Of a stretch of DNA of 33,429 bases, positions 8,679-14,664 are shown one piece after another. Source of the DNA: Gemmatimonadota bacterium (lineage in GTDB: Bacteria > Gemmatimonadota > Gemmatimonadetes > Gemmatimonadales > GWC2-71-9); contig SHZU01000015.1 in assembly GCA_009692115.1 (NCBI GenBank), forward strand, positions 1-33,429, read 5' to 3'. The position numbers and the translations under genes are program-made. The notes beneath the pieces were generated by a model. It did not search any database and was not told where the DNA came from. It saw nothing but the letters and a program-made list of their open reading frames with translations. Each line of letters starts with the position of its first letter. Position 1 is the first letter of the stretch.

Positions 8679-9859
8679 TAGGCGCCGAGGGTGGTGGCGC
8701 GGTGGCGGATGGCTTCGCGATAGCCGTCGAGATTCCGGGTGAATTCGGAGATCGAGTCGCCCCCGAATTTCTCGAGCATGGCGTCGGCGAGCACGATGGC
8801 CACCAGCGCTTCGGCGATGACGCCCATAGCCGGCACCGCGGTCACATCGGACCGTTCGCTTTGGGCTTGGGCGGCCTGTCCGGTCTTCAAGTCGACCGTG
8901 GCGAGCGGAGTCATCAGGGTGGCGATCGGCTTCATGGCGACCCGAACGACGAGTGGCTCGCCCGTGGTCATCCCCCCTTCGAGGCCCCCGGCGTTGTTGC
9001 TCCGGCGCGCAAATCCGGATTTAGCACTCGGATCGATCGGATCGTGGACCGCCGACCCAGGGCGGCGGGCGGCCTCGAAGCCGAGTCCGATTTCCACGCC
9101 TTTGACCGCCGGAATCGACATCAGCATCCCGGCCAGGCGGCCGTCGAGTTTTCGGTCCCAAGAGACATGACTGCCGAGTCCGAGTGGGAGACCGTCGGCG
9201 ACGACGTCGATCTCGCCGCCTAACGTGTCGCCGTCCTGCTTGGCTTGGTCGATCCGGGCGATGATGGCGGCCTCGGAGGCGGGGTCGAGGACCCGGACCG
9301 GCGAGGCATCGGACGTCGCGTTGAGCGGGCGTGGCAGCGGATTCGGGGCGGTGACCCGGATTCCGCCGAGCGACACGACGTGGCTTCCGATGGCAATGGC
9401 GCAGGCGTCGAGGAGCCGTTTGGCGACGGCCCCGGCCGCGACCCGGGCGGCGGTTTCGCGGGCGCTGGCCCGTTCCAGGATGTCGCGAGCGTCTTGGCGG
9501 TCGTATTTGAGGACGCCGACCAAGTCGGCGTGGCCGGGCCTTGGCCGGGTGACTTGGCGGCGGCGAGGTTGGTCGGTGGCTTCGGGGGCCATGATGTCGG
9601 CCCAGTTGGCCCAATCCCGGTTCTCGATCAGCATGGCGATCGGGGAGCCGAGGGTGGTGCCGGCGCGGACGCCCGAGAGGAATTGGATTTGGTCGTGTTC
9701 GATCTTCATCCGGGCGCCGCGGCCGTAGCCCTGCATCCGGCGGGCGAGCTCGAGGTTGACCCAGGGTGCGTCGAGGGGGAGGCCGGCGGGGACGCCTTCG
9801 ACGAGGGCGACGAGGGCTTTGCCGTGCGATTCCCCAGCGGTGGTGAAGCGGAAGTGCAT
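8678..9859 (-). CDS. aroC: Chorismate synthase
   Basis: 393 aa. It converts 5-enolpyruvylshikimate-3-phosphate to chorismate using reduced FMN. Start ATG 9859 gives MHFRFTTAGESHGKALVAL, the canonical N-terminus with the conserved GESHG. Further family blocks are RRMQGYGRGARMKIE (41-54), SGVRAGTTLGSPIAM, RASARETAARVAAGA and GLEGGMTTGEPLVVRVAMKPI. An upstream start at 9922 exists, but it would add 21 non-conserved residues and ignores the TACCTT box 5 nt before ATG 9859. There is no clear Shine-Dalgarno, in keeping with a leaderless start. It is first in an operon with aroK. The protein is slightly longer than E. coli AroC (361 aa), as in many Gram-positive-type chorismate synthases. Confidence 0.96.
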   Translation of the reverse strand: MHFRFTTAGESHGKALVALVEGVPAGLPLDAPWVNLELARRMQGYGRGARMKIEHDQIQFLSGVRAGTTLGSPIAMLIENRDWANWADIMAPEATDQPRRRQVTRPRPGHADLVGVLKYDRQDARDILERASARETAARVAAGAVAKRLLDACAIAIGSHVVSLGGIRVTAPNPLPRPLNATSDASPVRVLDPASEAAIIARIDQAKQDGDTLGGEIDVVADGLPLGLGSHVSWDRKLDGRLAGMLMSIPAVKGVEIGLGFEAARRPGSAVHDPIDPSAKSGFARRSNNAGGLEGGMTTGEPLVVRVAMKPIATLMTPLATVDLKTGQAAQAQSERSDVTAVPAMGVIAEALVAIVLADAMLEKFGGDSISEFTRNLDGYREAIRHRATTLGA

Positions 9860-9870: not shown

Positions 9871-9979
9871 ATCCCGCGCCAGGCGGAACCGGACCCCGCG
9901 GACCGCTACCGGGGCCGCTCATGGCGCCGACTTACTAGATTTGAATAGGTGCGAAGCAACGCCTGAGGGGGGGGCGCCA

Positions 9980-10440
9980 ATGAACCCGCTTGAGCATTGG
10001 GCCGGCGCAATCCGCCCGATCTGGAACACCCATCGCACGATCATTCTCCGAGCCTCCGTTGCGCTCCTCAGCCTCTACGCCGCCCTCAAGCTCGGTACTG
10101 AGTTCTGGCGACTGCTCTTTGACATGAGCCCGACCGGCGCAATTGACTTGCGCATCCTCAACCACCAAACCCGGGCGTGGTTCGAGGGGCATTTGGTGTA
10201 CACCGGATCAACCCTCACGCCCCATCCTCCCGCCACCTTCGTCATCCTCTATCCATTCCTCGGTTGGCTGGAGTTTGCTCAGGCGCGATGGGTGTGGGCG
10301 GCCACGACGGTGGTGATGCTTGGCGCGTTGACCGTTGTGCTAGTCCGGGCCAGTGGTGCTACCACACGGCTCGAGCGGGGGCTGGTGGCGGTGATGCTCC
10401 TGTCCATGAACGCGACGGGGGTGGACGTCGTGCCCGCGGC
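9980..10440 (+). pseudogene. GT87-like membrane glycosyltransferase, truncated
   Basis: ATG 9980 lies behind a G-rich ribosome site (GAGGGGGGGG). The translation MNPLEHWAGAIRPIWNTHR continues with a first hydrophobic helix (about 23-36), then DLRILNHQTRAWFEGHLVYTG and HPPATFVILYPFLGWLEFA, then two further membrane helices. This is the start of a GT87/DUF2029-type polyprenol-sugar-dependent mannosyl/glycosyltransferase (dxRvyxxxaxAxleGxxvY ... yPPlxxlllaPl). Family members have about 400 residues and ten or more helices. Here recognisable sequence ends near residue 150-155, around 10440. The frame then runs on as arginine/serine-rich nonsense, overlapping the SDR gene to 10747. The break coincides with the left edge of the lower-GC cassette, so insertion or deletion there probably removed the rest. 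Confidence 0.6.
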
Positions 10441-10488
10441 GGCGTACGTTGGAGTCGCAACCAGACTCCCACGCCTGAGGCAACAACC

Positions 10489-11244
10489 TTGGATTTCACG
10501 AACCAGCGTGTCCTGGTCACGGGGAGCAGCCGTGGTATCGGCCTTGCCATTGCCAAGGCATTTCTCGACGCGGGTGCTCGGGTCGCAATCAACGGCACCT
10601 CGAAACAGTCTGTGGCTGCGGCCATGGCAAGCCTGGCCGCTCCGGAACACACCGTCGCGGCGCCTGGAAACATCGGCACCGTTGCCGGTTGCGAGTCGGT
10701 GGTCGAGACGGCGATCACGGCGTTCGGGGGCCTCGACGTTTTGGTGAACAACGCTGGGGTCGGCGCGGGCCGGCCGATTGCGGCGTGTGACGAGGCGATG
10801 TGGGACGCGCACGCCGATGTCAATCTCAAGGGGTTGTTCTTCTGCTGTCGCGCCGCGATCCCCGCCTTGCGCCAGGCCAATGGGAATATCGTCAATATTG
10901 CGTCGGACGCCGGTTTGATGGGGGTGCCGGGCATTACCGTTTACTGCGGCACCAAGGGCGGCGTGGTGAACATGTCGCGGGCGATGGCATTGGAAATCGC
11001 CCCGGACGTGCGGGTCAATTGCGTCTGCCCGGGTTACGTCGACACCGACATGATTCGCAAGAGCAACAAGGCCAAGGCCGACCCCGCCGCGGCCTGGCAG
11101 AAGATGGTCGACTATGCCCCGCTCAAACGGATCGGGTCTCCTGAAGAGATCGCCCACGCGGTCCTCTACTTGGCGTCATCCCAAGCGCGGTTCATTACGG
11201 GCATCGCTCTCGCCATTGACGGCGGCACGACCGCCGGCCGTTAG
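10489..11244 (+). CDS. SDR-family NAD(P)-dependent oxidoreductase (FabG-like)
   Basis: 251 aa classical short-chain dehydrogenase. I take TTG 10489 as start: it gives (M)DFTNQRVLVTGSSRGIGLAI, with the cofactor motif TGSSRGIG (11-18) at the normal distance from the N-terminus, and a GAGG ribosome site lies 8 nt upstream. No ATG is available nearby. The catalytic set is S139 (NIASD), Y152 and K156 (YCGTK); NNAG is at 87-90 and the tail GIALAIDGGTTAGR is typical. It probably oxidises a hydroxyl or reduces a carbonyl on a small metabolite; the substrate is not readable. It is 45 bp ahead of the ornithine-cyclodeaminase-family gene on the same strand, likely in one transcript. Base composition is lower in GC than the flanking genes, consistent with horizontal transfer. 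Confidence 0.88.
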   Translation: MDFTNQRVLVTGSSRGIGLAIAKAFLDAGARVAINGTSKQSVAAAMASLAAPEHTVAAPGNIGTVAGCESVVETAITAFGGLDVLVNNAGVGAGRPIAACDEAMWDAHADVNLKGLFFCCRAAIPALRQANGNIVNIASDAGLMGVPGITVYCGTKGGVVNMSRAMALEIAPDVRVNCVCPGYVDTDMIRKSNKAKADPAAAWQKMVDYAPLKRIGSPEEIAHAVLYLASSQARFITGIALAIDGGTTAGR

Positions 11245-11289
11245 CAACGCCGTTGCGCACACCCATTAGATGAGAAGAGGCCTGCTGCG

Positions 11290-12276
11290 ATGACTATGGT
11301 ATTCGGACTGGAAGCGATCAAGCGGTTGATCACGACCCCACCACTGATCCAGGCGATCGAAGACGGCTTCGTTCTCTACTCCGACGGCAAGGTCGTCGTG
11401 CCACCGGTTGGCTTTTTGCATTTTGATCAGCCCCCAGGCGATGTGCATATCAAATATGGCTACGTGCGAGGCGACGACATTTATGTCTTGAAAATGGCGT
11501 CTGGCTTCTATGACAACGCGAAGCTGGGTGTGCCGGTGACCGACGGCGTCATTCTGGTTTTCAGCCAGCAGACCGGGCACTTGAAGATGTTGCTCCATGA
11601 TGAATGTTGGCTCACCGACATGCGCACCGCGGCGGCCGGTGCGGTTGCCGCCCGCTATCTGGCCCCCAAAAATGTCCGTCACATCGGCATCGTCGGCACC
11701 GGGGTGCAAGCGCGGATGCAACTCACGCTGTTGAGGACTGTGGTCGACTGTCGCAGCTGTTTTGTTTGGGGTCGAGACACAGCCAAAGTCCAGGCGATGA
11801 TCGAGGACCTCAACGCCGACGCCTCGATTCAGGACTGGGGTCTTAAGATCAAAGCGGCGTCTGATATCGGGGAACTGGCGTCAGAGTGCCGGCTCATCGT
11901 GACCACGACGTCGGCCAGGGAGGCGCTGATTCGGGCGGACCAGGTCCAGGCGGGTACCCATATCACGGCCATGGGTTCGGATGACCACGGCAAGCAGGAA
12001 TTGGAGGCCGCGCTGCTCGGGAAGGCGGATCGGGTGGTGGCAGACAGCATTGCCCAATGCGTCGATCACGGGGAGTGCTTTCATGCCGTGAAGCACGGCA
12101 GCATCCGAGCCGACTCAATTCTCGAATTGGGCAACGTCATCAAGAACCCGGCCCTGGGTCGAACCAACGACGAGCAGATTACAGTGGCAGACCTGACGGG
12201 TATTGCGATCCAGGATATTCAAATTGCCAAGATGGTTACCAGCGCTTACAGCAAGGGAGACTCACGTGGCGGTTGA
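11290..12276 (+). CDS. Ornithine cyclodeaminase/mu-crystallin family imine reductase or dehydrogenase
   Basis: 328 aa. The family binds NAD(P) and converts amino acids and cyclic or linear imines; members include ornithine cyclodeaminase, alanine dehydrogenase, EutC of ectoine use and iminosuccinate reductase BhcD. Visible: substrate lysine K68 (YVLKMASGFYDNAKLGVP), R112 in LTDMRTAAAGAVAA, the dinucleotide fold HIGIVGTGVQARMQ (131-144), and the GSDDHGKQEL block (229-238) with D231 as the probable proton donor. The N-terminus lacks a signal peptide, so the enzyme is cytoplasmic. It lies between an SDR gene and a PLP-dependent lyase whose start overlaps its end by 11 bp. Within 11401-11520 only 60 of 120 bases are G or C, against 83 of 120 in aroC at 9481-9600. 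The precise substrate is unknown. Confidence 0.88.
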   Translation: MTMVFGLEAIKRLITTPPLIQAIEDGFVLYSDGKVVVPPVGFLHFDQPPGDVHIKYGYVRGDDIYVLKMASGFYDNAKLGVPVTDGVILVFSQQTGHLKMLLHDECWLTDMRTAAAGAVAARYLAPKNVRHIGIVGTGVQARMQLTLLRTVVDCRSCFVWGRDTAKVQAMIEDLNADASIQDWGLKIKAASDIGELASECRLIVTTTSAREALIRADQVQAGTHITAMGSDDHGKQELEAALLGKADRVVADSIAQCVDHGECFHAVKHGSIRADSILELGNVIKNPALGRTNDEQITVADLTGIAIQDIQIAKMVTSAYSKGDSRGG

Positions 12277-13243
12277 ACAGCGGGACCAGCTGGACGTACC
12301 GACACTGGTACAACAGGCGTACGAGAGGACCAAGGCCTATCTCTCGCCCACACCGCTCGAGTTTTCTGGTTACCTGAGCGACCAGATCGAAGCTGAGGTG
12401 TGGCTCAAGTTGGATTTGGTGCAGAAGACCGGCTCCTTCAAATATCGCGGGGCGATCAACAAGATTCTGTCACTCACGGAAGCGGAACTCGACCAGGGGG
12501 TCGTGTCGACCTCGACCGGCAACTACGCGCTCGCGGTCGCCGAGGCGATGCGCCAGCGGGGCCGCCGGGCCACGATCTACGTTGCCCGCGACATGGACGA
12601 GTCGCGCCTGAATATCCTAAGGTCCGCTGGCCTCGACTTGGTCATTTTTGGCGACCTTGCATGGGATGCTGAGGAAGAGGCCCGCCGGGTGGGCGAGGAG
12701 GAGGGCAAGATTTATGTGTCGCCCTACAACGATCCGCTGGTGGTGGGCGGTCAGGGTACCTGCGGCTACGAGATCTCGCAGCAACTTCCGGATCTGGACG
12801 CGGCCTTCTTTGCCTGCGGTTCGGGTGGGTTGCTGACCGGTTCGGCGGGTTGGCTCAAGTCCTACAACCCCAAGATCGAAGCCTATGGCGTGTCACCGGC
12901 GAACTCGCCAGTAATGCACGAGTCCATGCGAGCCAACAGGATCGTCAGGACCGAGATGTACCCGACCCTGGCGGACACCTGTGCAGGAAGTGTGGATCCA
13001 GATAGTATCACCCTGGAACTCTGCCAACGACACGTGGCTGAGATCGTACTGCTGTCTGAAAAGGAAATTGAAGCGTCGATCCGCCTGTTGTTCGAACACC
13101 ATCGACTGGTGTCCGAAGGATCCGGCGCGTTGGGTGTCGGGGGTCTGCTCAAGCGGAAAGAGCGCTTCAAGGGGAAGAAAGTCGTCGCGGTGGTCTGTGG
13201 GCGGAACATCGACCTCGACGTGTTCAAGCGAATTGTCGCCTAA
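12266..13243 (+). CDS. PLP-dependent threonine/hydroxyaspartate dehydratase-like lyase
   Basis: 325 aa fold-type-II PLP enzyme. GTG 12266 is chosen because AAGGGAG stands just upstream, and it gives VAVEQRDQLDVPTL. Key features: the PLP lysine K59 in KTGSFKYRGA, the STSTGNYALAVAEA loop that holds the substrate carboxylate, and the phosphate-binding ACGSGGLLTG. The family dehydrates beta-hydroxy amino acids (serine, threonine, threo-3-hydroxyaspartate) through an enamine/imine. The EutB and BhcB branches work beside an ornithine-cyclodeaminase-family partner, exactly the neighbour seen here. There is no ACT regulatory domain, so it is not the biosynthetic allosteric IlvA type. The stop TAA interlocks with the stop of the convergent permease in the shared CTAA. 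Confidence 0.88.
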   Translation: MAVEQRDQLDVPTLVQQAYERTKAYLSPTPLEFSGYLSDQIEAEVWLKLDLVQKTGSFKYRGAINKILSLTEAELDQGVVSTSTGNYALAVAEAMRQRGRRATIYVARDMDESRLNILRSAGLDLVIFGDLAWDAEEEARRVGEEEGKIYVSPYNDPLVVGGQGTCGYEISQQLPDLDAAFFACGSGGLLTGSAGWLKSYNPKIEAYGVSPANSPVMHESMRANRIVRTEMYPTLADTCAGSVDPDSITLELCQRHVAEIVLLSEKEIEASIRLLFEHHRLVSEGSGALGVGGLLKRKERFKGKKVVAVVCGRNIDLDVFKRIVA

Positions 13244-14664
13244 CGATCTTTGATTAAATTCCCGGTCCTCTGGCCACGCCAATACAACGTCAGCCCGATG
13301 CCGATCAGGAACACGCAGCCGCCCGCCACCTTGACCAAGAACATCCGGGGATTGGGGTCGCTGGCGGGTGGCACCATCGAGAAGGTGATGCCCATCAAGG
13401 TCGTGGCAAACCCGACGGCGCCCGCCACCCGGCAGCCGAGCTTGCCAAGCCGTGACGAGGACGCGCTGGGATCCGACCGCGCGGCTCGTTCCCGCAAGAC
13501 CGGATAGGCCGCGAAGATGTACAGCAAGGGCAGCAGCGAGAGGATAATGGTCATGTCGACCAGCACGACGAAGGCGTCGCGCACGGTTGCGCCTGACATC
13601 GCCGCCGCGAAGACCAGGGTAGCGGCAGAACTCTGGGTCAGCAGGGCGACGTAGGGCGAGCCGTGGCGGGGATGCAGTCGCGCGAGTGCCTTGGGCAGGT
13701 AGCGATCCACCCCCACCACGAATGGCAGGCGAGCGGTACCGGCCAGAAAGGCGCCGAAACTTCCGACGCTCGCCAGCGCCAGGAATCCCGCCGTCAGCGG
13801 CCCGAAGAACGGCAGACCGATCCGCTCGCCGATGGCGGCAAGAGCTTGCGGAATCCCGGCGATCACGTCGATGGTGGCGGTCGGCAACGCCACCAGCAGC
13901 GAAGCCGTGCCGGCCATGTAGATAATCGTGACGATGACCCCGGCGATCACCGCGGCCCGGCGCAGTTGCCGCGCCGGATCGCGGATCTCGCCACCCATGA
14001 TCGGGCCGAGTTCGAGCCCCTGCAACGCGCCGGCGACAATCGCGAATGCCGCATAGGTCGACCGGGCGCCGAAATCAGGCATCAGACTGGCCGCCGTGAA
14101 GGGCGTCGCCGGGCCAAACCGATACCAGGCTACGGCACCCGCGCCGATCACTAAGGTGGCCACCGTCCACGCCGCCATTCCGCCAAGGTTCGGGAGCCAC
14201 TTGCCCCGCTTGAGGCCGAGGATATTCAAGGCCGTGGCCGCCCACAACACGGTCAGACAGTAGACGCTGTTGTACCCGACGCTGGTCGAATAGGGCAGCC
14301 AGCGTTCGCCGCCGACCCGGAGGAACACCCCGGCGCTGAACAACAGGGCGGACGGGAAGAACACCACGTTGACCACCCAGTACGACCACCCGGCGACGAA
14401 GCCGTGGACGTCGCCAAAGCCGGCCTTGGCCCAGAGGTAGAGTCCGCCTTCGCCGGGGACGCGGGCACTCAGGTCGAGGACCGCGAAGGCCAGGGGGATG
14501 AAGAAGAACACCAAGCCCATGGCCCACAGCACCAAACTCGAGGGGCCGATTTGCGCCGCCGTCGACAACCAGCGCAGACTGACGATGGCGGCGATGTTGA
14601 GCAACACCAGATCCCCGGTGCCCAAGACCCGGTGCAGTTGGCTAGCGGCTTCGGGTTTGCTCAC
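13240..14664 (-). CDS. APC-superfamily amino-acid permease
   Basis: 474 aa, about 12 predicted hydrophobic segments, inner membrane. GTG 14664 starts VSKPEAASQLHRVLGTGDLVLLNIAAIVSLRWLS, and the first helix then aligns with family N-termini. The longer frame to 15030 would add 122 polar residues overlapping the divergent gene and is rejected. Family blocks: PGEGGLYLWAKAGFGDVHGFVAGW (helix 2 into helix 3 region), QGLELGPIMGGEIRDPARQLRRAA (helix 6 region with the EIRDP acidic loop), and LPFVVGVDRYLPKALARLHPRHGSPYVAL. It likely imports an amino acid or exchanges it against a product. It converges on the SDR/imine-reductase/lyase genes and probably supplies their substrate. The stop TAG lies inside a CGTTAGGC octamer. 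Confidence 0.88.
   Translation of the reverse strand: MSKPEAASQLHRVLGTGDLVLLNIAAIVSLRWLSTAAQIGPSSLVLWAMGLVFFFIPLAFAVLDLSARVPGEGGLYLWAKAGFGDVHGFVAGWSYWVVNVVFFPSALLFSAGVFLRVGGERWLPYSTSVGYNSVYCLTVLWAATALNILGLKRGKWLPNLGGMAAWTVATLVIGAGAVAWYRFGPATPFTAASLMPDFGARSTYAAFAIVAGALQGLELGPIMGGEIRDPARQLRRAAVIAGVIVTIIYMAGTASLLVALPTATIDVIAGIPQALAAIGERIGLPFFGPLTAGFLALASVGSFGAFLAGTARLPFVVGVDRYLPKALARLHPRHGSPYVALLTQSSAATLVFAAAMSGATVRDAFVVLVDMTIILSLLPLLYIFAAYPVLRERAARSDPSASSSRLGKLGCRVAGAVGFATTLMGITFSMVPPASDPNPRMFLVKVAGGCVFLIGIGLTLYWRGQRTGNLIKDR

Follow-up and report, generated by a model that had tools for sequence, protein, structure and literature searches.

The window, as we call the whole 33,429-nucleotide stretch of DNA analyzed here, carries two overlapping genes that encode an enzyme of the ornithine cyclodeaminase (OCD)/mu-crystallin family and a fold-type II PLP lyase. 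Together, the two enzymes make up a putative coupled dehydratase/imine-reductase pair of a different lineage from EutB/EutC and BhcB/BhcD, a reading to which we assign a probability of roughly 0.55. In the best reading, with the chemistry predicted from the enzyme families, the pair is a third lineage that would turn an amino acid with a beta-hydroxy group, or with a comparable beta substituent, into a saturated amino acid. The window lies on contig 15 of a 3.12-Mb MAG that is 97% complete and that L012, the nearest relative by the cassette, and a search of the same phylum place in Gemmatimonadota.

The ORF coordinates and the 11-bp overlap of the OCD and lyase genes given in an earlier note on this DNA were exact (Table 1), and Pfam confirmed all four of the families named there, with E-values of 4.9e-59 for the SDR (adh_short_C2), 1.1e-56 for the OCD (OCD_Mu_crystall), 2.7e-69 for the lyase (PALP), and 1.1e-38 for the permease (AA_permease_2). 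The 11-bp overlap likely couples the translation of the OCD and lyase genes, and AAGGGAG lies about 9 bases 5' of the lyase GTG start. At its other end, the lyase gene overlaps the permease gene tail-to-tail by 4 bp. The GC content of the OCD and lyase genes was 58-60%, against a window mean of 65.5%. The SDR gene has the same TTG start in three related loci (L013, L017, and L024), the nucleotide homology to L013 begins exactly at this codon (10489) with its borders at gene ends, and the dN/dS values of the SDR, OCD, and lyase genes (0.05-0.11) indicated purifying selection. The cassette is therefore real and not a product of chance.

Table 1. Features of the cassette and its neighbors in the window
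Feature	Position	Strand	Basis
GT87-like membrane glycosyltransferase gene, 5' remnant, directly upstream of the cassette	9941..10450	+	Weak GT87 match
SDR oxidoreductase, classical, optional cassette gene 1	10489..11244	+	TTG start; Pfam PF13561/PF00106
OCD/mu-crystallin-family enzyme, predicted NAD(P)H-dependent imino-acid reductase	11290..12276	+	ATG start; Pfam PF02423; NF005296; tree
Overlap (11 bp) between the OCD and lyase genes (3' and 5' ends, respectively)	12266..12276	+	Sequence
PLP lyase, fold-type II, threonine dehydratase type	12266..13243	+	GTG start; Pfam PF00291; NF005292; clade
APC-family amino-acid permease, convergent neighbor	13240..14664	-	GTG at 14664, stop at 13240-13242; Pfam PF13520

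In the tree, the clade that holds the lyase has 10 members (100/100) and lies away from EutB, BhcB, and TdcB. It was nested in a 42-member NF005292-like branch that contained no EutB, BhcB, TdcB, or serine racemases. The match to PF00291 (234 bits, above the cut-off), the Schiff-base motif TGSFKYRGA, and the glycine-rich phosphate loop GSGGL place the protein among the fold-type II PLP lyases. The clade signature is STGNYALA and TLADTCAG. While the asparagine loop is mostly STGNH or SSGNH in the other lyases compared, it reads STGN[Y/F]ALA in this clade, and TLADTCAG stands in place of TLSDGTAG. The two altered motifs suggest that the substrate pocket differs from that of the other lyases compared. 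The structural model of the lyase (pLDDT 93.5) was nearest in fold to TdcB (2gn0, Z 47.0) and serine racemase (Z 45.4).

The OCD belonged to a 35-member clade (100/99) with the signature PPVG...HIKYG, apart from EutC, BhcD, archaeal AlaDH, and pyrroline-2-carboxylate reductase (P2CR). Residues K55, K68, R112, and D231 were invariant in the clade. The K68, R112, and D231 core, also present in the EutC and BhcD rows, and the match to PF02423 (192.6 bits against a cut-off of 24, residues 7-320) assign the enzyme to the OCD superfamily. Position 40 of the window OCD is occupied by Val (Lys in AlaDH, Arg in P2CR) and position 55 by Lys (Met in both AlaDH and P2CR). Since EutC (Ile/Lys) and BhcD (Val/Lys) share this pattern of a hydrophobic residue at 40 and Lys at 55, the OCD is like the two members of its family with a known or proposed role after a PLP lyase, and unlike the other reductases compared. 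The structural model (pLDDT 92) gave Z scores of 40.9 to both BhcD (6rqa) and P2CR (6t3e) and 40.8 to AlaDH (1omo), so that several solved folds, BhcD among them, are tied as the nearest, and such near-equal scores of a predicted structure do not discriminate the function of the enzyme. Residues 160-162, which follow the second Rossmann strand, read WGR, a sequence that would suit NADPH.

The top-scoring NCBIfam models were NF005292 (PRK06815 threonine/serine dehydratase) for the lyase, with 337 bits, and NF005296 (PRK06823) for the OCD, with 392 bits, yet both scores were below the equivalog cut-offs (371 and 438, respectively). NF005296 has no assigned function beyond its family name. An OCD of Sinorhizobium meliloti pSymA, 53% identical to the window OCD, passes this model. 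In that locus (L053, 8001-11449), an amino-acid ABC transporter is followed by the OCD, with threonine synthase and an inositol-monophosphatase-family gene 3' of it.

Using the OCD as the query, we found 41 loci in the genome scan. The lyase (57-88% identity) was located immediately downstream of the OCD or within about 1 kb of it in nine of them (L012, L013, L014, L015, L017, L027, L039, L040, and L044) as in the window, giving ten loci from Gemmatimonadota, Pseudomonadota, Bacteroidota-labelled, and Planctomycetota MAGs, four phyla by the labels in the MAG titles. In L023, only a 3' remnant of the lyase was left beside the OCD. The OCD adjoined the lyase in all lyase-clade loci found except that of genome G337. 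The two proteins also diverged together (Mantel r 0.96, p 5e-5, for eight core pairs; r 0.92 for 14 pairs with Eut and Bhc left out). Since the pairs have a common history, this is a sign of co-inheritance and not of independent events. The earlier note would have taken a lack of co-occurrence in other genomes as a refutation, and the lyase and the OCD did co-occur there. The pair shows the adjacency and co-inheritance expected of a coupled dehydratase/imine reductase. Wider OCD and lyase pairs from the same two branches were present in eight more loci (L047, L054, L055, L057, L083, L111, L123, and L124), and a related OCD and lyase shared one cluster in L059. Amino-acid ABC transporters accompanied the distant sets in L057 and L059.

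The segment from 10489 to 13227 aligned without interruption and collinearly to L013, from a gammaproteobacterial MAG, with 72.5% nucleotide identity over 2753 nt. A close SDR (78-81% identical) was directly 5' of the OCD in L013, L017, and L024, and a different SDR sat between the OCD and the lyase in L015. In L012, which is closest to the window (84% and 88% identity), other genes surround the pair and the SDR is missing. Because the pair recurred while the SDR was present in some loci only, we consider the OCD and the lyase to be the core and the SDR optional. A GntR/FCD regulator preceded the cassette in L013, L016, and L017. In the Woeseiaceae-like bin of L017, the lyase gene (9121-9729) lacked about 200 bp internally, through gene decay or faulty assembly.

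Directly upstream of the cassette, the GT87-like fragment (22.5 bits, under the cut-off of 25) stops where the cassette starts, a pattern suggestive of cassette insertion. With this truncated gene, the homology to L013 that starts at the SDR TTG, and the different surroundings of the pair in L012, the cassette looks as though it moves between lineages and phyla as a block. The lyase clade itself is rare in the genomes searched. It was present in only 3 of 395 Gemmatimonadota genomes, with a clear identity gap from 76% to 43%, and about 1,280 further genomes sampled (from Planctomycetota, Bacteroidota, and the order and phylum to which the Woeseiaceae-like bins belong) held no lyase-clade loci beyond the known ones. 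The searches of about 1,700 genomes of the four phyla added only G337 and G109, the latter sharing its 3.9-Mb genome type with L012.

It could be proposed that the cassette is a divergent module for hydroxyectoine/ectoine utilization. EutB/EutC is also a fold-type II PLP lyase with an OCD-family reductase in an overlapping gene pair (L058), and no other named pair comes closer by NCBIfam score (262 bits for EutB, 268 for EutC). Some OCDs have homoserine dehydrogenase and M20-type genes nearby, which is reminiscent of the eut clusters of Bacillota (PMC13188858). However, these scores were far under the cut-offs: the EutB models TIGR02991 and NF005680 gave the window lyase 233 and 262 of 413 bits, and the EutC model TIGR02992 gave the OCD 268 of 472 bits, which leaves both proteins outside the EutB and EutC families. 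Unlike EutB/EutC, the window enzymes belong to separate clades, their gene order is reversed, the EutA/D/E partners are lacking, and the lyase loop is STGN[Y/F] and not STGNH. No close ectoine hydrolase (DoeA) or deacetylase (DoeB) was found in the 97% complete genome, the best relatives being remote (26% and 24% identity; 62.5 of 613 and 77.5 of 403 bits). We therefore disfavor a Eut function as highly improbable. The EutB/EutC chemistry, dehydration followed by reduction with NADH, is itself a proposal that is biochemically untested according to a review (PMC5924519).

A variant of the beta-hydroxyaspartate cycle (BhcB/BhcD), or a 3-hydroxyaspartate dehydratase pair, would use enzyme families and an OCD active-site signature identical in kind. 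In that system, the imine formed by the dehydratase is reduced to an amino acid by an OCD-family reductase, as is predicted here from the families. Two BhcC-family proteins are encoded elsewhere in the genome (40% and 34% identity, the best on another contig), but they reach only 316 and 197 of 690 bits. The window proteins are 31-33% identical to BhcB and BhcD and belong to other clades, with the lyase grouped apart from both BhcB and serine racemase. The models NF045641 (BhcB, 196 of 550 bits) and NF045643 (BhcD, 184 of 500 bits) exclude them from these families. Neither bhcA nor bhcC was found in the window, and there is no bhcABCD gene order. This alternative is hardly credible. The earlier note had taken the window pair for a possible variant outside EutB/C and BhcB/D. 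The trees, with the lyase apart from TdcB, EutB, and BhcB and the OCD apart from EutC, BhcD, and AlaDH, and scores far under all four cut-offs bore this out, and the absence of close Eut and Bhc companions reported there held for ectoine hydrolase, ectoine deacetylase, and BhcC in the whole genome. The window pair may all the same act in the manner of those two systems.

On the other hand, the OCD may be a stand-alone imino-acid reductase or amino-acid dehydrogenase (DauB- or AlaDH-like), and the lyase an ordinary Ser/Thr-type dehydratase of the same catabolic operon, with no hand-over of an intermediate. Many close OCDs (60-76%) had no adjoining lyase, including those of Woeseiaceae in L016, L018, L019, and L024, some Woeseiaceae having the OCD alone, and a lyase of this clade was not found in the searched genomes of the OCD-only loci. 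Other OCDs of the clade adjoined FAD oxidoreductases (L020-L022), a VioD/GntC-like PLP enzyme without the lyase (L029, L038, and L049), or, in the wider clade, threonine synthase (thrC; L053). YheO-PAS/HTH regulators, a type associated with the Dau system, were found at four OCD clusters (L054, L057, L059, and L112, the last without a lyase), which is a further likeness to DauB besides the predicted NAD(P)H-dependent reduction of an imino acid to an L-amino acid. The partner of DauB is an FAD D-amino-acid dehydrogenase and not a PLP lyase. L-Arginine dehydrogenase belongs to the OCD superfamily (PMC4113996). Against separate functions stand the 11-bp overlap, the co-divergence (r 0.96), and the repeated pairing across deep branches, so that we consider the stand-alone explanation unlikely and retain the coupled pair. 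The OCD may nevertheless be a general imino-acid reductase serving several partners. In the alignment, no residue separated the lyase-paired from the unpaired OCDs.

Several neighborhoods were noted alongside. The VioD/GntC-like enzyme (PRK07324), of fold type I, recurred beside OCDs of the branch in eight loci (L029, L038, L049, L056, L057, L112, L123, and L124) with or without the lyase, L057, L123, and L124 having the OCD/lyase pair as well. In G337 (L114), a lyase of this clade had no OCD in the surrounding 19 kb, which speaks against an obligate pair. Here the lyase was surrounded by two SDRs, an MppQ-like aminotransferase, an MttB-family methyltransferase, and an amidohydrolase/beta-lactamase-fold fusion resembling D-aminoacylases. 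The genome of the window carries a second pair of an OCD and a fold-type II lyase (L010; G000:C10:148832-150799, minus strand), in which an OCD of the PRK08618/Pyr2C-reductase type is followed by a diaminopropionate ammonia-lyase (PRK08206, 310 bits, over the cut-off). Because L023 and L024 carry homoserine dehydrogenase close to the OCD, a link to canavanine gamma-lyase was considered, and it was rejected; one canavanine paper (PMC10018355) makes no mention of an OCD.

The earlier note had also suggested a four-gene module in which the permease would import the substrate. No homologous permease was found beside any related cassette, with only remote APC proteins (41-43 bits) in L023 and L118, and the close SDR occurred in three other loci. 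The four-gene module was therefore rejected, and since the permease does not accompany the relatives, its import role found no support.

In the proposed pathway, which leaves the permease outside, the lyase, with PLP on K59, would remove a beta leaving group, the hydroxyl or another, from the amino acid to yield an enamine/imino acid, as its family and fold suggest. The OCD, with its EutC/BhcD-like active site, would then use NAD(P)H to reduce this intermediate to a saturated L-amino acid before it is hydrolyzed to the oxo acid and ammonia. The SDR, in those members that have it, might adjust a hydroxyl/keto group on the precursor or the product, which is speculative. The role of the cassette is probably catabolic, although this direction too is speculative. 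In its fullest form, which we hold tentatively at somewhat less than even odds, the account describes a third, previously undescribed route of dehydratase and imine reductase that strips the beta-hydroxyl from a substrate amino acid that is neither hydroxyectoine nor hydroxyaspartate, encoded by an interphylum cassette whose reductase clade has been recruited to other PLP enzymes.

If this is correct, the combination of a PLP lyase with an OCD-family imine reductase would be a recurrent catalytic module and not two isolated cases. It would achieve net removal of the beta-hydroxyl from an amino acid with the nitrogen kept, by a route open to testing, and would give a function to the unnamed enzymes of NF005292 and NF005296.
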